Shown one piece after another: positions 1,618 to 56,416 of a stretch of 64,000 bases of DNA. The stretch is taken from positions 1 to 64,000 of the forward strand of contig NZ_JAAAGB010000013.1 of NCBI RefSeq assembly GCF_010586825.1. The letters run 5' to 3'. Source of the stretch: Draconibacterium mangrovi (lineage in GTDB: Bacteria > Bacteroidota > Bacteroidia > Bacteroidales > Prolixibacteraceae). How positions within the stretch are numbered: the first letter of the stretch is position 1; every line of letters starts with the position of its first letter. The notes under the pieces were generated by a model. It saw only the letters and a program-made list of their open reading frames with translations. It ran no database searches and was not told where the DNA came from. A program made the position numbers and the translations under genes.

Positions 1618-1694
1618 TGTCATTTCGAAGGAGAAACGACTGAGAAATCTTTTCCAAAAAAACAGATTTCTCCTCATTCTTCGTCGAAATGACA
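1618..1694. repeat. Family-A hairpin element, copy 1
   Basis: Long near-perfect inverted repeat with ends TGTCATTTCGA (1618-) and TCGAAATGACA (-1694) and inner arms GAGAAATCT (1642-1650) / AGATTTCTC (1664-1672). It begins 5 bases beyond the pepT stop codon (1700-1702, minus strand). Related copies lie at 3899-3990, 24907-24984 and 56333-56416. It may act as a transcript 3' end for pepT. Confidence 0.85.
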
Positions 1695-1699
1695 AGGAT

Positions 1700-2926
1700 C
1701 TACTTTTTCACTTTTCCAACCGCCTGCGCAATGTTCAGAATCACCTCAACCGATTTTAACATCGACGGAATGGGCACAAACTCGAATGGCCCATGGAAAT
1801 TATGCCCACCGGCAAAAATATTCGGGCAAGGCAGTCCTTCGTATGAAAGTCGTGCGCCATCGGTACCACCGCGAATGGCTTTTATTTTAGGTTCCACACC
1901 GGCATCAATCATCGCCTTTTCGGCAATATCGATTATGTATTTTACCGGCTCCACCTTTTCGCGCATGTTGTAGTACTGATCTTTCATTTTCAGCTCCACA
2001 ATATCTTTGTCGTATTCCGAATTTATCAGCTTAACAACGTCGGTTAGCAGTCGTTTTTTGTCTTCGAATTTGGTTTTGTCGTGGTCGCGGATGATATATT
2101 GTAATTCAGCTTCTTCAACTCCACCATTCATCGATAACAGGTGGAAAAATCCCTCGTATTTCTCGGTATGCTCCGGGCGTTGTGTTGGAGGCAGTATAGC
2201 AACCAGTTTATGCGCCACCAACAGGGCGTTTATCATTTTATCTTTGGCCGATCCGGGGTGTACACTTAATCCTTTAATCTTAATAGTAGCTCCGGCGGCA
2301 TTAAAGTTTTCATACTCCAGCTCGCCAATTTCGCCGCCATCGAGCGTGTAGGCAAAATCGGCCCCGAATTTCTTCACATCAAAAAAGTCGGTTCCTTTAC
2401 CAATCTCCTCGTCGGGAGTAAAAGCAATTCGGATTTTTCCGTGCTTTAAATCCGGCGAATTTAACAACTGCTCGGCAGCGGTAACAATTTCCGCTACTCC
2501 TGCTTTATCGTCGGCACCCAACAGTGTTGTTCCATCGGCTGTAATAATATCCTGGCCTTTGTAATTAAGAATCTCGGGAAATTGCTTTGGATCGATACAA
2601 ACATTATTTTTTAAAAAAACGGTACAGCCATCGTAATTCTCCAGGATTTGTGGTTCAACACTTTCGCCAGAAAAATCAGGGCTGGTATCCACATGCGAAA
2701 TAAAGCCAACCACCGGGCAGTCGTTAATCCCCTTTGCCGGAATGGTTGCTGTTACGTAACCGTATTTGTCCATTTCTACTTCACTTAAACCAATTTCTTT
2801 CAACTCCTCAACCAGTTTTTTCATAAAAACCAGTTGACGATCGGTACTTGGGTAAGTTTTACTTTTTGGATCGGAAGTGGTGTATTGTTTTGCGTAATTG
2901 ATAAATCGTTCTACTATTTTTTCCAT
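1700..2926 (-). CDS. pepT: Peptidase T (tripeptide aminopeptidase, M20B)
   Basis: A cytoplasmic di-zinc aminopeptidase that releases the N-terminal residue of tripeptides. Zinc ligands and catalytic residues of the M20B family are visible: H78 and D80 in SHVDTSPD, bridging D in LLGADDKAG (139-140), general-base E173/E174 in PDEEIG, D196 in TLDGGE, and the C-terminal His in AGGHNFHG. Length 408 aa matches the family. The ATG at 2926 lies about 37 bases downstream of the expected start site for a perfect TAAATTTG -7 box (2970-2977). It is monocistronic: repeats separate it from both neighbours. Confidence 0.95.
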   Translation of the reverse strand: MEKIVERFINYAKQYTTSDPKSKTYPSTDRQLVFMKKLVEELKEIGLSEVEMDKYGYVTATIPAKGINDCPVVGFISHVDTSPDFSGESVEPQILENYDGCTVFLKNNVCIDPKQFPEILNYKGQDIITADGTTLLGADDKAGVAEIVTAAEQLLNSPDLKHGKIRIAFTPDEEIGKGTDFFDVKKFGADFAYTLDGGEIGELEYENFNAAGATIKIKGLSVHPGSAKDKMINALLVAHKLVAILPPTQRPEHTEKYEGFFHLLSMNGGVEEAELQYIIRDHDKTKFEDKKRLLTDVVKLINSEYDKDIVELKMKDQYYNMREKVEPVKYIIDIAEKAMIDAGVEPKIKAIRGGTDGARLSYEGLPCPNIFAGGHNFHGPFEFVPIPSMLKSVEVILNIAQAVGKVKK

Positions 2927-3815: not shown

Positions 3816-3853
3816 AGCGTGTAAATATTAACTTTTAAATGTACACAATTACT

Positions 3854-3888
3854 GAAAAAAAAGAAAGCAGCCCGGTTGAGCTGCTTTT
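3854..3888 (-). terminator. Terminator downstream of proS
   Basis: Stem AAAGCAGC (3864-3871) / GCTGCTTT (3880-3887). On the minus strand it is followed by CTTTTTTTT, a classic intrinsic terminator for the proS transcript. Confidence 0.8.
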
Positions 3889-3898
3889 ATATTTTTCT

Positions 3899-3990
3899 TG
3901 TCATTTCGACGAGCTAGCGAGGAGAAATCTTTTTCAATGTAGCAGATTTAGCTCCGCTGATTTTCAATTCTCATTTCATTCGAAATGACA
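3899..3990. repeat. Family-A hairpin element, copy 2
   Basis: Begins TGTCATTTCGACGAG and ends TTCGAAATGACA at 3990, with an inner GAGAAATCT / AGATTTAGCTC pair. Its right end touches the proS stop codon (3991-3993) with no base between, and it lies between that stop and the proS terminator. Confidence 0.85.
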
Positions 3991-5466
3991 TTAATATGCT
4001 AAAGCGAACAATACCCTTCTTTTTGAAGGTTTGCCCGAGTAAATACACGTTCCTTCTTCCTCTTCGTATTCCAAAGGCATACAACGAATAGTTGCTTTGG
4101 TTTCGTTTTTAATGAGGTCCTCGGTTTCAGGTGTTCCATCCCAGTGCGCCGAAATAAAACCACCTTTTGTAGTTAATATTTCTTTAAACTCTTCCCAGGT
4201 ATCAGCTTTGCGTGTATTTTCAGCACGGAAATCGTAGGCTTTTTTGAAAATATTTTGCTGAATGTCTTCCAATAAATTTTCTACGTACTCGTCGATATTG
4301 TCAATCGAAGTAACTTCCTTTGTCAGGTTGTCACGACGGGCAACTTCCACTGTTCCGTTCTCCAAATCGCGTGGTCCCATTGCCAAACGTACCGGAACAC
4401 CTTTTAATTCGTATTCCGCAAATTTCCATCCCGGTTTACGCGTATCGCGATCATCGTATTTAACCGTAATACCTTTTGCTTTTAATTTGGCGATGATCTC
4501 ATCCACTTTTTCAGTGATTTCAGCCAGTTGTTCCTCTTTACGGTAAATTGGAACGATTACAACCTGGAATGGCGCCAGTTTTGGAGGCAATACCAAACCG
4601 TTGTCATCAGAGTGCGCCATAATTAACGCTCCCATCAAACGGGTTGAAACACCCCACGATGTCGCCCACACGTAATCCTCTTTTCCTTCTTTAGTGGCAA
4701 AAGTTACATCAAAAGCTTTGGCAAAGTTCTGCCCCAGGAAGTGTGAAGTTCCTGACTGCAATGCTTTTCCATCCTGCATCAGTGCCTCAATAGAATACGT
4801 TTCCAATGCACCGGCAAAACGCTCGTTGGCCGATTTTAAACCTTTTACAACCGGAACGGCCATAAAATTCTCAGCAAAATCAGCATATACGTTAATGATC
4901 TTTTCAGTCTCTTCAATAGCCTCAGCTTTAGTTGCGTGAGCGGTGTGACCTTCCTGCCACAAAAACTCGGCAGTACGCAAAAACAAACGCGTACGCATTT
5001 CCCAACGTACAACGTTGGCCCACTGGTTAACCAGAATTGGCAGGTCGCGGTACGATTGTATCCAGTTTTTATATGTATTCCAGATTATGGTTTCAGAAGT
5101 CGGTCGTACAATCAGTTCCTCTTCCAGTTTGGCATCCGGGTCAACAACCACTCCGCCATTCTCCTCATCGTTCTTTAATCGGTAGTGTGTAACTACTGCA
5201 CACTCTTTTGCAAAGCCCTCAACGTGATCGGCTTCTTTACTAAAAAAAGATTTTGGTATAAAAAGCGGGAAATAAGCATTAACGTGTCCGGTCTCTTTAA
5301 ACATACGGTCGAGCTCGGCCTGCATTTTCTCCCAAATGGCGTAGCCATAAGGCTTAATAACCATACAACCCCTAACTGCCGAATTCTCAGCGAGGTCTGC
5401 TTTAATCACCAAATCCTGGTACCATTGTGAATAATTCTCGCTACGCGAGGTCAATTCTTTCGCCAT
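3991..5466 (-). CDS. proS: Prolyl-tRNA synthetase (archaeal/eukaryotic type)
   Basis: A class II aminoacyl-tRNA synthetase charging tRNA-Pro. The short form (491 aa), lacking the INS editing domain between motifs 2 and 3 and ending in a C-terminal Tyr (RVLFALAY), is the archaeal/eukaryotic-like ProRS found in Bacteroidota. The motif 2 region VRPTSET and [23 protein letters not shown] is present, then the anticodon-binding domain (about 290-385) and the C-terminal zinc-binding-like domain. ATG start at 5466. It is transcribed divergently from the 5565 lipoprotein gene. Confidence 0.96.
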
Positions 5467-24906: not shown

Positions 24907-24984
24907 TGTCATTTCGAAGGAGTTAACGACTGAGAAATCTGCCCGTTAAAGCTTCCTTCTCTTCCTCCGTCCTCGAAATAACTG
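24907..24984. repeat. Family-A hairpin element, copy 3, overlapping coding sequence
   Basis: TGTCATTTCGAAGGAG at 24907-24922 with ACGACTGAGAAATCT, and a diverged far end TCGAAATAACTG at 24973-24984. On the minus strand this encodes about the last 24 residues of the SGNH gene (…FEDGGREGSFNGQISQSLTPSK) and supplies its TGA stop from within GAAATGACA. Confidence 0.75.
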
Positions 24985-26447
24985 TTTATTGTAAGTTCTT
25001 TTTTATCAATCAAATAATTCTCAAAATCCTTCATCATCGCACCAAAAAACAGGTCGGCTATCATTAAATAACCTTCGCGGGAAAAGTGGATTTTATCGCT
25101 TTGCGCCAGTCCATTGTTTTGCCACAGCACAATGGAATTCAAACCTCCCATAACCGAAAACATGTCCCACACACCGGCATTGTATTTTTTGGCCATTTTA
25201 AACATGCTGTCCTGCACCTTTTCGCCATTTTTGTTCACATACCGGCGGTACAGGTAACTGTCGTTGTTAGTAGTAAACACAATCAGCGCATTTGGAGCAG
25301 CGGCTTTTATTTTGTCGATAAGCTGTCCGTAATGATCTTCGAAACGGGCTTGCGAAAACTTTCGGCCATAGGCGTCGTTAATTCCCAGTCCGAGAATCAC
25401 AAGATCAGGACTAAGATCAGCCAGCTGTTCGGTAAAAAGCTGGCAACGCAAAAATGCCGGAACATGCGCTCCGTTCACGCCAATACTGTGATACATTATG
25501 CCGTTTGGATCCGTTTCGGTGCTCATTCCCAGCAAGGTAAAATTACCCTGCGAATTGTAATCTTTCTCTAGTGTTATCTGCAAACTATCTACCCACTCAT
25601 TCAGTTCAAAATCGGTGTATCCTTCGGCTTCCACCTTATTTTTCACCAAATCCTGATCAATATTTATGGAGTAATTCTTTGCTGTGTTCTCGTAATAAAT
25701 TCTCAGTTTATTAAAACTGTAATCCAGTTCGTTTTCGTCTTCCAGTAAAATAGTGAGCTCGGCTTTTGGCGATGATGTTGTTGCAGAAATGCCTCCCACT
25801 CCCAGCGTTCCGCTTTTCCGGCCTTCAACATTACGGAAAGTTTTCCAGTAGCCGTTGTAACGAATATAATAACCAAAAGGCGAGTTGGTGCGTGCAATGC
25901 GGTACGGAAACATAAATCCCCAACCGGCATTCATTTCGCCGTTAAGTTGCTGAAAACGGTTGCGCATTTGCCCCGAAAACGAACCCGCCTGAATGTGTGA
26001 GCCACCAATTTGAACAATATTTACACGTCCTTCACCGGTGCTTACCAGTTGCTCCAGCTTTGAATAAAATCGTTCTGCATTTGTCCGGCTTCCGGGGTAA
26101 TGCATTTCATTGCGGTCGTAACGAACAAAGTTGTACTGGTTAACGTGGTAGAAGTAGCTGTTTTGCTGGGCGGAAACGGATGTGCCTATGAGCAGGATAA
26201 TTGCAATGACAATGAATGACAAGCTTCTAGCTTCCAGCCGCGAGCTGCGAGCTTTTAAAGATTGCACGAAGATTGATGGAGATTGAATTAGATTGAATAG
26301 AGATTGATCTACAAAACTTAGTACGCTATTGAAACTAGCAACTTGTAGCTTGAAGCTTCGTTGAAACAGCTCTCTCACTACGTTCGAGATGACAGTGAAC
26401 TCGTTACTCATAGCTCGCAGCTCGATACTTTTTACTTTCTTCCCCAT
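24909..26447 (-). CDS. SGNH/GDSL hydrolase, ends remodelled by repeats
   Basis: A periplasmic SGNH-fold esterase or acyltransferase (512 aa). Block I is IGGSHIQAG with nucleophile Ser150 (Gly in place of the usual Asp before Ser), block III is GLGINDAYG, and block V is DKIHFSREG (Asp/His). The ATG at 26447 overlaps the upstream stop (TAATG) behind a strong GGAGGAGG site. The expected signal peptide (LSFIVIAIILLIGTSVSA) only begins at residue 76: residues about 10-74 are encoded by interspersed-repeat DNA (26222-26437), and the C-terminus by a family-A hairpin. An internal TTG at residue 76 could restore a normal signal peptide. Likely partner of the MBOAT protein. Confidence 0.85.
   Translation of the reverse strand: MGKKVKSIELRAMSNEFTVISNVVRELFQRSFKLQVASFNSVLSFVDQSLFNLIQSPSIFVQSLKARSSRLEARSLSFIVIAIILLIGTSVSAQQNSYFYHVNQYNFVRYDRNEMHYPGSRTNAERFYSKLEQLVSTGEGRVNIVQIGGSHIQAGSFSGQMRNRFQQLNGEMNAGWGFMFPYRIARTNSPFGYYIRYNGYWKTFRNVEGRKSGTLGVGGISATTSSPKAELTILLEDENELDYSFNKLRIYYENTAKNYSINIDQDLVKNKVEAEGYTDFELNEWVDSLQITLEKDYNSQGNFTLLGMSTETDPNGIMYHSIGVNGAHVPAFLRCQLFTEQLADLSPDLVILGLGINDAYGRKFSQARFEDHYGQLIDKIKAAAPNALIVFTTNNDSYLYRRYVNKNGEKVQDSMFKMAKKYNAGVWDMFSVMGGLNSIVLWQNNGLAQSDKIHFSREGYLMIADLFFGAMMKDFENYLIDKKELTINSYFEDGGREGSFNGQISQSLTPSK
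26222..26437. repeat. Composite interspersed repeat inside the SGNH gene
   Basis: Contains AGCTTCTAGCTTCCAGC and GCGAGCTGCGAGCTT (26222-26257), a GATTGAATTAGATTGAAT stretch (26273-26310), AACTTGTAGCTTGAAGCTTCG (26340-26360, 21 bp described here in part), a partial family-A end CTACGTTCGAGATGACAG (26379-26395), and AGCTCGCAGCTCG (26407-26424). Similar AGCTTGAAGCTTG pieces occur at 46731-46770. Confidence 0.7.
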
Positions 26448-45626: not shown

Positions 45627-45638
45627 GAAATAATTTCT

Positions 45639-45711
45639 CGCAGATTTCGCTGATGCCACAGATTTCTTCCGGATTAAAATTTCTTATCTGCGTAAATCCG
45701 CGAAATCTGCG
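45639..45711. repeat. CGCAGATTTCGC hairpin element (family D)
   Basis: Perfect 12-bp arms CGCAGATTTCGC (45639-45650) and GCGAAATCTGCG (45700-45711) around CCACAGATTTC and ATCTGCGTAAATCC. It fills the gap between two convergent genes: 12 bases after the AEC stop and 5 bases from the GTPase stop. It may serve both as a terminator. Confidence 0.8.
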
Positions 45712-45716
45712 TGCAA

Positions 45717-46643
45717 TTATATTTCAGGATTAAAGTCTAAAGCCAGCCCATCCAATTTCCCAATAAAAACAATATGACTTTCCGGTGCTTCCATAATTAA
45801 ATCGCCTTCTTCTAATTCAAAGCGGCCGCCCACTCCCTGCAAAATATATTCAAAAGGTTCGTTCTGGAAACACACCACACCTTTGCAGCGATAAATCCGG
45901 CTTTTATAAATGTCAAGCGTGTATTCCAGCCAGTAAAGGAAATCGGCCCGTTTTAACGGAGCAGAAAATGAAAGTGTTTTGGTTTGCACCAGCGCATGAT
46001 TGCTTTTGTACGAAAAAAAAGAATACGCATTAAACGAATGTTGTCTAAGGTCTTTCAGTTTCAGTTCTTTTGCTACTCCGAAACTTGCTGATTGAATTTT
46101 GGCCAAAGGAGCCAGTTTATTCATTCTTTCAGTAAGTTCCTCTTGCTGCTTTTCATCCAGGCTTTCGGTTTTGTTTAGCAAAATAAGGTCTGCAATAGTT
46201 AACTGTTTGTATGCCATCTCCTCTTCCGGTAGATCATCAAAGTTCAAGGCATCAACCAAACAAATCGCGCCGTTGTATTCGTAGAGTTCTTTTAGATCTT
46301 CATCAGCAAAAAAAGGTTGAATTACAGGTGCCGGATCGGCAATTCCGGTGGTTTCAATCAACAGATGATCCACATTCGGGAAACGCTCAGCCAGTTCCTT
46401 TAGTACCAGCTCGTACTCGTCGGAAATGGAGCAGCAAATACAGCCCTGTTTCAATTCGAACATCTGGCTGGCATCAACACCTTTTATCAGTTTCGTGTCG
46501 ATGGGAACAGCACCAAATTCGTTTTCTACCAAAGCAAACTGAGTGTCGGAATTTGATTTCAGCAGGAAGTTGATAAAAGTAGTCTTCCCGGCCCCAAGGA
46601 AGCCGGTGATTATGGTTACTGGTATTTTATTTTTGTGCTCCAA
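45717..46643 (-). CDS. G3E-family GTPase (CobW/YjiA-like metallochaperone)
   Basis: A cytoplasmic GTPase of the CobW/YjiA group (308 aa with this start). Walker A is GFLGAGKTTF (about 14-23), the metal-binding CxCC motif is CICC (68-71), Walker B-like IETTGIADP and the guanine motif NKTE follow, and a CobW C-terminal domain ends the chain. Such proteins insert Zn, Co or Fe into enzymes. No ATG is available in frame before Walker A; I use the TTG at 46643. The open frame continues upstream only through repeat DNA (46670-46770), which is probably not translated. Confidence 0.85.
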   Translation of the reverse strand: MEHKNKIPVTIITGFLGAGKTTFINFLLKSNSDTQFALVENEFGAVPIDTKLIKGVDASQMFELKQGCICCSISDEYELVLKELAERFPNVDHLLIETTGIADPAPVIQPFFADEDLKELYEYNGAICLVDALNFDDLPEEEMAYKQLTIADLILLNKTESLDEKQQEELTERMNKLAPLAKIQSASFGVAKELKLKDLRQHSFNAYSFFSYKSNHALVQTKTLSFSAPLKRADFLYWLEYTLDIYKSRIYRCKGVVCFQNEPFEYILQGVGGRFELEEGDLIMEAPESHIVFIGKLDGLALDFNPEI

Positions 46644-49470: not shown

Positions 49471-49848
49471 CTTTGGGAGTACTCCCAAAGGCTCCCTAAC
49501 GCAGTTTTCTTGCTTTGGGAGTACTCCCAAAGGTTCCCTACCGCGTGTTTCTTGCTTTGGGAGTACTCCCAAAGGTTCCCTACCGCGGGTTTCTTGCTTT
49601 GGGAGTACTCCCGAAGGCTCCCTAACGCGTGTTTCTTGCTTTGGGAATACTCCCAAAGGTCCCCTACCGCGTTTTTTTTGCTTTGGGAGTACTCCCGAAG
49701 GCTCCTTAACGCGTGTTTCTTGCTTTGGGAATACTCCCAAAGGTTCCTCAACGCGGGTTTCTTGCTTTGGGAGTACTCCCAAAGCTTCCTCAACGCGGGT
49801 TCCTTGCTTTGGGAGTACTCCCAAAGCTTCCTCAACGCGGGTTTCTTG
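49471..49848. repeat. Palindromic tandem array, 9 x 42 bp
   Basis: Units start at 49471, 49513, 49555, 49597, 49639, 49681, 49723, 49765 and 49807; a tenth from 49849 is degenerate. Each unit opens with the perfect 20-bp palindrome CTTTGGGAGTACTCCCAAAG followed by a 22-bp linker of the type G(G/C)TTCCC(T)A(A/C)CGCG...TTTCTTG. Changes in the palindrome are mild (GAATAC; CCCGAAG), mostly keeping a hairpin. The unit length is a multiple of 3, so several frames are open on both strands; I consider all of them artefacts. The array ends 128 bases before the Spy-like gene. Confidence 0.93.
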
Positions 49849-55611: not shown

Positions 55612-56331
55612 ATGCAAGCAATGTTATTCGCCGCCGGTTTGGGCACCCGTTTAAAAGACGAAACGGCCGATAAACCAAAAGCACTGGTTGAAGTTGGCGG
55701 TAAACCCTTGCTGCAGCATGCCATTGAGAAACTGAGTGCTGAAGGAGCCACAAGAATAGTGGTAAACGTTCATCATTTTGCGCCTCAGGTAATTGATTTT
55801 ATTAATAGCAAGAGCTGGAGTGTTCCGATACTTATCTCCGACGAAAGCGACAAACTGCTTGAAACAGGTGGCGGTCTAAAATTTGCATCGCACCTTTTCG
55901 CACCCGGCGAGCCGATACTTATTTACAATGTTGATATTCTGAGCAACATTAATTTGCACGATGTATTGGCGCAGCATACCCAATCAAATGCCATTGCCAC
56001 CTTGGTTGTTCGGCAGCGCGAAACACAACGTTACTTTAAGTTCGATGCGGAGCACAACCTCGTGGGTTGGATCAATAAAAAAACGGGCGAAACAAAAATT
56101 TCCAGGCCTGAAAATTTTCAGGAAGCTACAGAAATGGCTTTTAGCGGCATTCATATTGTAGAGCCGCAAATTTTTGATTTTATGCCCGACGAAGATCGTT
56201 TTTCAATCGTTCAGGTATACCTCGAACTGGCAAAAACCAAAAATATAAGAGGTTACTTTGATACTTCTGAATTGTGGATGGATGTTGGCAAACCTGCACA
56301 ACTGGTGGAAGCACGCATGCTATTTAGCTAA
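55612..56331 (+). CDS. Sugar-phosphate nucleotidyltransferase
   Basis: A 239-aa NTP-transferase with the signature AAGLGTRLKDETADKPKAL and VGGKPLLQHAIEKL at the N-terminus, and ILIYNVDILSNI (metal-binding Asp). It is short, without a hexapeptide domain, like MurU (MurNAc-1-P uridylyltransferase) and small mannose-1-P guanylyltransferases; the sugar is not certain. No MurK-like kinase gene is adjacent. A family-A hairpin begins one base after its stop codon. Confidence 0.88.
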   Translation: MQAMLFAAGLGTRLKDETADKPKALVEVGGKPLLQHAIEKLSAEGATRIVVNVHHFAPQVIDFINSKSWSVPILISDESDKLLETGGGLKFASHLFAPGEPILIYNVDILSNINLHDVLAQHTQSNAIATLVVRQRETQRYFKFDAEHNLVGWINKKTGETKISRPENFQEATEMAFSGIHIVEPQIFDFMPDEDRFSIVQVYLELAKTKNIRGYFDTSELWMDVGKPAQLVEARMLFS

Positions 56332-56332
56332 C

Positions 56333-56416
56333 TGTCATTTCGAAGGAGGCACGACTGAGAAATCTCTGACCAACTTTCAGAATAGCTACCGATTTCACTC
56401 TACGTTCGAAATGACA
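56333..56416. repeat. Family-A hairpin element, copy 4
   Basis: TGTCATTTCGAAGGAG (identical to copies 1 and 3) with ACGACTGAGAAATC, inner partner GATTTCACTC, and far end ACGTTCGAAATGACA at 56402-56416. It starts one base beyond the stop codon of the 55612-56331 gene. Confidence 0.88.

Follow-up and report, generated by a model that had tools for sequence, protein, structure and literature searches.

Four related hairpins are located in the 64,000-nt stretch of Draconibacterium mangrovi DNA analysed here (the window), each at the 3' end of a gene (Table 1). The initial annotation had placed them at distances of 5, 0, overlapping and 1 nt from the stop codons of these genes, and both positions and gaps have been confirmed; its gene names agree with Pfam at the family level (M20 peptidase, prolyl-tRNA synthetase, GDSL lipase and NTP_transferase). 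Its description of the elements as REP-like also holds, the hairpins being head-to-head REP doublets. The two halves of copy 1 read TGTCATTTCGA..GAGAAATCT (left) and AGATTTCTC..TCGAAATGACA (right), with a predicted fold of -29.8 kcal/mol. The right arm of copy 3 is degenerate (TCGAAATAACT). The frame of the GDSL/SGNH gene runs through this copy as far as a TGA in the left arm, and the copy encodes about 24 C-terminal residues together with the stop codon. The terminator-like hairpin near proS is separate from copy 2 and lies beyond it in the proS direction; it is also found in genome G002, where the copy 2 element is absent.

Table 1. Hairpin copies, adjoining genes and the nuclease-bearing element; positions are those of the window unless a locus (L) is named
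Feature	Position	Strand	Size and remarks
REP doublet copy 1	1618..1694	.	77 bp; 5 nt past the stop of the M20 peptidase (pepT-like) gene
M20-family peptidase gene (pepT-like)	1700..2926	-	stop codon 1700-1702; ORF list and Pfam
Terminator-like hairpin AAAGCAGC..GCTGCTTT with T-runs	3853..3897	.	read from the sequence
REP doublet copy 2	3899..3990	.	92 bp; abuts the proS stop codon
proS (prolyl-tRNA synthetase)	3991..5466	-	stop codon 3991-3993; ORF list and Pfam
REP doublet copy 3	24907..24983/4	.	77-78 bp; holds the stop codon of the GDSL/SGNH gene
GDSL/SGNH hydrolase ORF	24909..26447	-	last ~24 codons and stop in copy 3; Pfam
NTP_transferase gene	55612..56331	+	stop codon 56329-56331; ORF list and Pfam
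REP doublet copy 4	56333..56416	.	84 bp; 1 nt past the stop of the NTP_transferase gene
Hairpin at L288 (20th copy)	L288 4001-4073		73 bp; 18 nt past an ORF stop
Full-length copy	L022 4001-4375		375 bp; window-type arms; same genome, outside the window
GIY-YIG nuclease ORF	L022 4041-4343		100 aa, in the loop; Pfam PF01541, E=3e-15

Other repeats are also visible in the window. A palindrome, CGCAGATTTCGCTGAT / ATCCGCGAAATCTGCG, fills the gap between two convergent ORFs at 45627-45720; it follows directly on the stop of the first (45626) and extends to that of the second (45717). Nine tandem 42-bp units at 49471-49827, in which the palindrome CTTTGGGAGTACTCCCAAAG recurs exactly or nearly so, overlap ORFs on both strands.

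The hairpins of the window belong to a larger family. The sequence TGTCATTTCGA, which together with TCGAAATGACA forms the ends of the hairpins, has 21+21 exact matches in the 5.9-Mb genome; the reversed control has 1+2. The search by exact half-sites, which copies without one exact half-site would escape, gave 20 two-armed copies, composed of 19 hairpins and one nuclease-bearing copy. Eighteen of the hairpins measure 77-94 bp and the one at L288 73 bp, while the nuclease-bearing copy reaches 375 bp. The count leaves out five sites that are one-armed or consist of a half only, their nearest stops being 25-215 nt away, an unpaired half-site (L013, 4540) and two exact, chance half-sites within long open frames (L010, L287).

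Each half has the form GTC-ATTTC...GAAAT-C, a REP-like mini-palindrome, and a copy is a head-to-head doublet of two such halves that may form one hairpin. In the window-type left half the ATTTC/GAAAT stem of 5 bp encloses a variable inner part of about 11-18 nt, and the tail ends in GAAATCT(G). The predicted folding energies range from -17.2 to -39.5 kcal/mol (18 copies). In alignment A1, formed from 17 copies (degenerate copy 3 and L288 not included), TGTC is present at both outer ends in 15 copies, and L020 and L023 have TGAC at one end. Within the consensus fold of 20 pairs, with the arms paired, no pair has changed on both sides, and covariation as proof of an RNA role was rejected on this count (0/20). 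The alignment shows a conserved DNA sequence, and the RNA fold has no covariation support.

The distance from each copy to the nearest stop codon was determined for 19 two-armed copies, with L288 outside the test; the genes of the window and of 20 fetched stretches were called by a home-made dicodon method. Twelve of the 19 lie within 10 nt of a stop and 17 within 20 nt, the two exceptions being at 41 and 198 nt; with L288 added, the numbers are 12 and 18 of 20. Random intergenic placement predicts 1.3 copies within 10 nt (largest of 20,000 trials, 9), and 1.8 are expected when divergent spaces are excluded (largest of 20,000 trials, 10). Between divergent genes no copy is found among the 19, versus 5.4 expected (P=0.0017). 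The claim that random intergenic insertion would not give such precision is supported for this genome, and the comparison with random placement proposed along with it reveals a strong bias to stops and no even spread. In the relative G029, 3 of 14 pairs taken from the listed places are within 10 nt of a stop (P=0.05) and 7 of 14 within 20 nt (P=0.0004), with one pair between divergent genes versus 1.8 expected; five of the distant pairs come from a single larger amplified unit. The stop-codon bias is real in this genome, yet it is already known for REPs: excerpts of a 2013 survey place most convergent and unidirectional REPs of one GTAG and one CGTC family near ORF 3' ends (PMC3733652).

In G007 (L247-L249) and G029 (L267, L268, L271, L273, L277) the hairpin has been taken up into larger repeat units, which recur between genes and look like cassette or attC-like arrays.

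The alternative put forward at the outset, that the elements have been recruited as transcript 3' ends, probably does not hold for most copies. An intrinsic terminator consists of a hairpin followed directly by a T-run, and TTTTT occurs within 25 nt beyond only 4 of the 19 copies; the terminator reading of the hairpins was rejected on these few T-runs. At site 2 (proS) it is the separate terminator-like hairpin beyond the element that carries the T-runs.

The four sites of the window were compared with those of related genomes. At site 1, behind the pepT-like stop, 15 of 30 loci were viewed, and 13 same-genus genomes retain both anchors. The hairpin is present in seven of them; another REP family occupies the site at 6 nt in G005 and G013, other REP-like sequence lies further off in G009 and G020, and G006 and G002 are empty. 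Site 2 contains the hairpin family in 6 of 15 loci, another REP family in G012, G013 and G029, decayed or mixed forms in G030 and G006, an unrelated hairpin in G024, G009 and G020, and none in G002. Site 3 carries the same element in G024, G030, G006, G034 and G029 and other sequence in G002, G012, G005 and G008. Site 4 is filled in G000, G005, G029 and G007 and lacks the element in G002, G024, G030, G012, G013, G034 and G028, the other loci not being assessable. No target-site duplication was found at the one clean empty site, the comparison of G000 with G002 at site 4. Sites that are filled, empty or occupied by another REP family from one relative to the next indicate that the hairpins are mobile or replaceable inserts. 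The empty allele of site 1 has 19 nt between the anchors, and neither there nor in that of site 4 is an obvious hairpin visible by eye. The suggestion that insertion targets a 3'-end structure is unsupported by these alleles.

What was decisive for the interpretation lies outside the window: a full-length copy in the same genome, with window-type arms and a GIY-YIG nuclease gene in its loop (Table 1). It begins 1 nt past the stop of an ORF that is esterase-like, as named by reading its translation. Of the earlier proposals, the REP-like character and the non-random placement stand; targeting of a 3'-end structure is so far unsupported, as is, for most copies, recruitment as transcript ends. 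Pfam revealed no NUMOD or other DNA-binding module in the nuclease, the one further hit (T5orf172) overlapping the GIY-YIG domain. Columns Y, Y, R, H, E and N, which we take to be catalytic, are invariant in nuclease alignments of 10 and 40 sequences. The nearest solved relatives are the UPF0213 proteins 1zg2 and 1ywl, a type that the 2006 GIY-YIG survey, in the passages concerned, places in the Slx1 family (PMC1564403). The predicted structure of the protein at L146 (pLDDT 94) matches 1zg2 best, followed by the I-TevI, Slx1 and UvrC domains, none at E<=0.001. In having a single GIY-YIG domain and UPF0213 proteins as closest solved relatives, the nuclease agrees with the Slx1/UPF0213 group.

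Matches to the nuclease at E<=0.001 are present in 43 of 61 genomes, the present one included, a number that also counts weak matches to other GIY-YIG subfamilies. The same arms bracket 15 of 16 fetched homologues of >=71% identity, the sixteenth (L048) being at a contig end and not assessable. Several more distant homologues have other arms on the same plan: GTCATTCCCGC..GCGGGAATC, GTCATTGCGAG..GCAATC and GTCATGCCGAA..TTCGGCATC. A nuclease of the same-genus genome G021 shows no difference, in the part compared, from that of a named Draconibacterium record, and on this evidence a Draconibacterium-like genus (Prolixibacteraceae) is probable. Matches to the pattern GTCATTCCCGC within the genus amount to 0-4 per genome and are uninformative. 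By a strict test for tagged REPs (GTC, an A-initial 5-bp stem, a loop of 3-30 nt and C, within 200 nt), REPs stand on both sides at 17 of 29 loci of relatives. In genome G007 a two-armed copy of 196 bp retains only the start and the end of the nuclease, fused where an internal deletion has removed the middle; this genome has 123 half-sites and no GIY-YIG match to P0001, and many of the copies examined there sit in larger amplified units. Phage records searched with the nuclease protein gave no match.

Other GIY-YIG genes of the same genome, a tRNA-adjacent subfamily and one of UvrC length (607 aa), have no such arms around them. The former, a second GIY-YIG subfamily (L033-L036; C11:425771, C7:23998, C11:1271154 and 1271494), adjoins tRNA-Val and tRNA-Ala genes, with partial tRNA-like copies upstream (by eye), one tandem pair and no REP arms; it looks like a separate tRNA-linked mobile gene. 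Among the nuclease loci themselves, no stop closes the nuclease frame at L058 and L060, where it continues across the right arm into a gene which, from reading the translation, we presume to be 6-phosphogluconate dehydrogenase-like; the two thus appear as one fused ORF of about 600 aa. At the nuclease site in G030, G024 and G012 (L219-L221) one REP half passes at a shared ATCTG into the tail of another palindrome, possibly a strand-switch junction as judged by eye. A similar-looking AACGCAGATAACGC palindrome, resembling the one at window position 45627, occurs at the nuclease site in G002, G008, G034 and G029.

A scan of named genomes extended the comparison to other phyla. The best 80 of at least 584 nuclease relatives were kept, 78 with usable flanks; the seeds came mostly from armed loci, and the counts speak for this nuclease subfamily only. 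A strict REP is present on both sides at 50 of the 78 loci (control placements, 1/881), facing inward at 40 (0/881), and on at least one side at 64 (36/881). The inverted-repeat score exceeds the 99th percentile of 872 controls at 60 of the 78 loci; 65 loci pass one or the other arm test and 13 neither. When upstream and downstream flanks of different loci are combined, 15.8% of the pairings also pass the shuffle threshold, since several loci have an arm type in common. The 50 doubly flanked loci, drawn from the best 80 of at least 584, include three without a phylum label; the others span 20 named labels, of which several denote candidate phyla.

Arm type follows the nuclease phylogeny. On a protein tree of 105 rows and 89 columns, in which many forks lack resolution, 28 changes of arm type are required over 74 labelled rows, versus 51.2 after shuffling (minimum 45 of 500), and 25 over the 53 named rows, versus 36.5 (minimum 31). 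One clade with support 90, mostly with GTCATTGCGGG arms, unites Campylobacterota, Betaproteobacteria and Bacteroidota. Arm specificity was assessed in 25 genomes picked by arm type, with counts that include the nuclease's own arms. Arm X (GTCATCCTGAACTTGTTTCAGGATC, up to one mismatch) occurs in all 8 genomes with an X-armed nuclease and in 0/17 others (Fisher 9e-7), and arm Y (GTCATTGCGGGCTTGACCCGCAATC) in all 7 with a Y-armed nuclease and in 0/18 others (2e-6). In the listed places, copies outside the nuclease locus are found in 13 of the 15 matched genomes and at the nuclease locus only in the other 2; one genome has 295 matches. Within the genus the link is weaker than across named genomes: TTTCGA half-sites have a median of 45.5 in 16 genomes with a close homologue versus 15 in 21 without (P=0.007; per Mb, P=0.02). 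Many half-sites and no detected close homologue occur in G007 (123), G001 (73), G015 (65), G011 (42) and G034 (40), of which G001 (86%) and G011 (73%) are incomplete assemblies.

In the plasmid collection 25 records have a nuclease match, and seven were examined (tag GTC[AC], 250 nt). Strict REPs of one kind flank both sides in Azospirillum lipoferum 4B, N. gonorrhoeae, where the match is unannotated as a gene, Rhizobium sp. CIAT894 and Planktothrix. In S. meliloti and Spirosoma the strict test detects such a REP to the left alone, although a related palindrome can be seen to the right, and no REP was found within 250 nt of the Rhizobium tumorigenes locus. On the A. lipoferum 4B plasmid AZO_p3 (L280) the nuclease element is located between sufB and sufC of the suf operon. 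Taken across these genomes, GTC-tagged REP doublets and a small GIY-YIG nuclease are linked in a conserved and arm-specific way, and the solo doublets turn over from site to site.

With the nuclease-bearing elements at hand, the stop-codon bias could be compared elsewhere. Thirty-four of the 80 named loci qualified by having 400 nt of flank and, within 150 nt, a strict REP pair that faces inward; with a crude ORF caller, which put 2 of the 34 inside a called ORF, 4, 6 and 6 lie within 10, 20 and 40 nt of a stop, the corresponding control values being 10, 16 and 24% of 1020. Enzyme-driven targeting of stop codons as a general rule was rejected on the lack of excess at these loci, and the proposal that insertion targets a 3'-end structure fares no better there (4/34 within 10 nt versus 10%).

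The CGTC REPs are among the known systems closest to the window family. These were described in the 2013 survey by Di Nocera, De Gregorio and Rocco, excerpts of which name Rickettsia RPE-4/RPE-6 and Neisseria dRS3 (CGTC-1) as members and A. lipoferum and S. meliloti among the hosts (PMC3733652). Both groups share the GTC/TGTC tag, which the CGTC superfamily has at one end as CGTC, TGTC or CCTC, the AT start of the stem and head-to-head doublets that, whether convergent or unidirectional, lie near the 3' ends of ORFs, and an association with RAYT (the IS200/IS605-like tyrosine transposase of REPINs) is absent from both. They differ in the stem (8-9 bp with a 4-5 nt loop in CGTC REPs, a 5-bp outer stem with a longer variable inner part here) and in the tail (mostly CCA versus T/TG). 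Because stem, loop and tail differ, the window family is not filed in CGTC-1 to -4, and is regarded as a relative of CGTC REPs that works alike. The same excerpts report no dedicated transposase for CGTC REPs, leaving open RAYTs, other transposases or a lost enzyme, and no RAYT gene flanked by them (PMC3733652), whereas the window family is linked to a nuclease gene. CGTC-type REPs do bracket a GIY-YIG gene in both A. lipoferum and S. meliloti, as well as the unannotated match in Neisseria; these three loci show the long-stem form, the former two with CCA tails.

Similarities extend to other systems. REPINs with their RAYT (the REPtron) likewise consist of two inverted REPs able to form one hairpin, as solo copies near gene ends and with an enzyme gene between the same REPs, but use a tyrosine transposase and a GTAG tag instead of a GIY-YIG nuclease and a GTC tag. 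The standalone Slx1/UPF0213 nucleases (YhbQ; 1zg2, 1ywl) resemble the present protein in length (about 95-100 aa), single GIY-YIG domain, profile and fold, as far as passages of the GIY-YIG survey describe them (PMC1564403), whereas no REP arms were found at E. coli yhbQ and the nucleases here are bracketed by REPs. Free-standing homing endonucleases of the I-TevI type, a group that cuts the uninterrupted cognate allele and has DNA-binding modules at the C terminus, share the catalytic domain and the mobile gene; in contrast to them, the nuclease here has no NUMOD or other DNA-binding domain in Pfam and is flanked by palindromic arms that are also found alone in many copies. MITEs are alike in being short, with inverted ends, and in arising as internal-deletion derivatives of a coding element, but have a target-site duplication and a transposase parent, while the hairpins have a nuclease parent and no duplication at the one clean empty site. 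In the open-access literature no paper combines GIY-YIG with 'repetitive extragenic palindromic', and among the matches listed none joined GIY-YIG nucleases with REPs in its title or the opening of its abstract; subscription papers or preprints may contain such a report.

The reading that we consider probable is that the hairpins are non-autonomous miniature copies of a GIY-YIG-nuclease element with two inverted GTC-tagged REPs, moved by the nuclease. The autonomous form would have the same two arms and, in the loop, a single-domain nuclease of about 100 aa from the Slx1/UPF0213 branch. When DNA becomes single-stranded during replication or transcription, each REP could fold into a mini-hairpin and the doublet into a long hairpin or cruciform. 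A nuclease that is structure-specific like Slx1 would recognise the tagged REP of its own kind and nick it at the tag or close by. Repair or strand switching may then copy or transfer the doublet, whether or not it contains the gene, to a new position, a move that would leave no target-site duplication. Movement of doublets by nicking of REP hairpins is what we infer from the comparison of sequences. Solo doublets would be moved in trans or be internal-deletion products of nuclease-bearing copies. Against the nuclease reading are the only moderate link within the genus, the five genomes rich in half-sites but with no detected close homologue, the two arm-matched genomes whose copies are confined to the nuclease locus, the 13 of 78 loci that pass neither arm test and, of the 7 plasmid-collection loci, Rhizobium tumorigenes with no REP and 2 with no strict REP of the same type on the right. 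Copies just past stop codons would survive, this zone tolerating inserts in a compact genome; RAYT-type REPs may show the same placement because the zone behind stops tolerates inserts.

The nuclease could instead be a passenger or homing gene that inserts into existing REP doublets, the REPs being spread by another enzyme, gene conversion or replication errors. GIY-YIG genes are classic homing genes, several genomes with many REPs have no close nuclease detected, and the same post-stop sites hold different REP families by species, which gene conversion could bring about. Set against this are the agreement of arm type with nuclease clade across phyla, the absence of arms X and Y from every searched genome without matching nuclease arms, the lack of a Pfam DNA-binding module beyond the nuclease domain (the T5orf172 hit overlapping it) and the deleted nuclease retained in G007; a passenger gene is, on this evidence, unlikely. 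Still less can be said for classical REPINs moved by a RAYT, which we hold to be extremely improbable. The doublet-hairpin anatomy is that of REPINs (PMC3116915), and the genome has four Y1_Tnp genes, but none of the four has paired arms in its 1.5-kb flanks, with one single-mismatch half-site inside the L029 gene, and RAYT as the mover was rejected on this result. The tag, moreover, is GTC/TGTC and not GTAG, and the 2013 survey, in excerpt, gives no RAYT flanked by CGTC REPs (PMC3733652).

The placement allows further explanations. Host 3'-UTR or terminator elements under selection at gene ends would account for the strong stop-codon bias, and in E. coli, according to passages citing that work, REPs no further than 15 nt from a stop reportedly cause ribosomes to stall and reduce translation (PMC12306157, PMC5082802). 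Such an origin is nevertheless very unlikely in view of the site-by-site turnover among species, with empty sites and other REP families, the T-runs beyond only 4/19 copies, the separate terminator-like hairpin at site 2 and the nuclease gene in the loop of one copy. It is rather doubtful, too, that the mobilising enzyme actively chooses targets behind stops, as opposed to the survival of harmless inserts. The 12 of 19 copies within 10 nt versus 1.8 expected in non-divergent space, a number above the largest of 20,000 trials (10), would fit such a choice, but 34 nuclease-bearing elements elsewhere have no excess, and GTAG REPs, tied to an unrelated enzyme, are placed alike in excerpts of the survey (PMC3733652). 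Because of these two observations, survival in a tolerant zone is favoured over targeting, and survival of copies is the presumed cause of the bias. The like post-stop placement of two unrelated REP systems points to host context, not the enzyme, as the cause.

On a wider scale, and with somewhat more caution, it appears on balance likely that the CGTC REPs, dRS3 included, have their missing dedicated enzyme in the Slx1/UPF0213 branch of GIY-YIG nucleases, and that enzyme and REPs form a nuclease-built mobile class parallel to RAYT-REPIN in about 20 phylum-level groups, each clade propagating its own hairpin in trans. The nuclease between matching arms in many phyla makes the open question of what moves the widespread CGTC REPs testable with a single small protein and a single oligonucleotide. 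If true, genes annotated only as 'GIY-YIG nuclease family protein' would acquire a role, and a nuclease without a transposase domain would be able to spread DNA.
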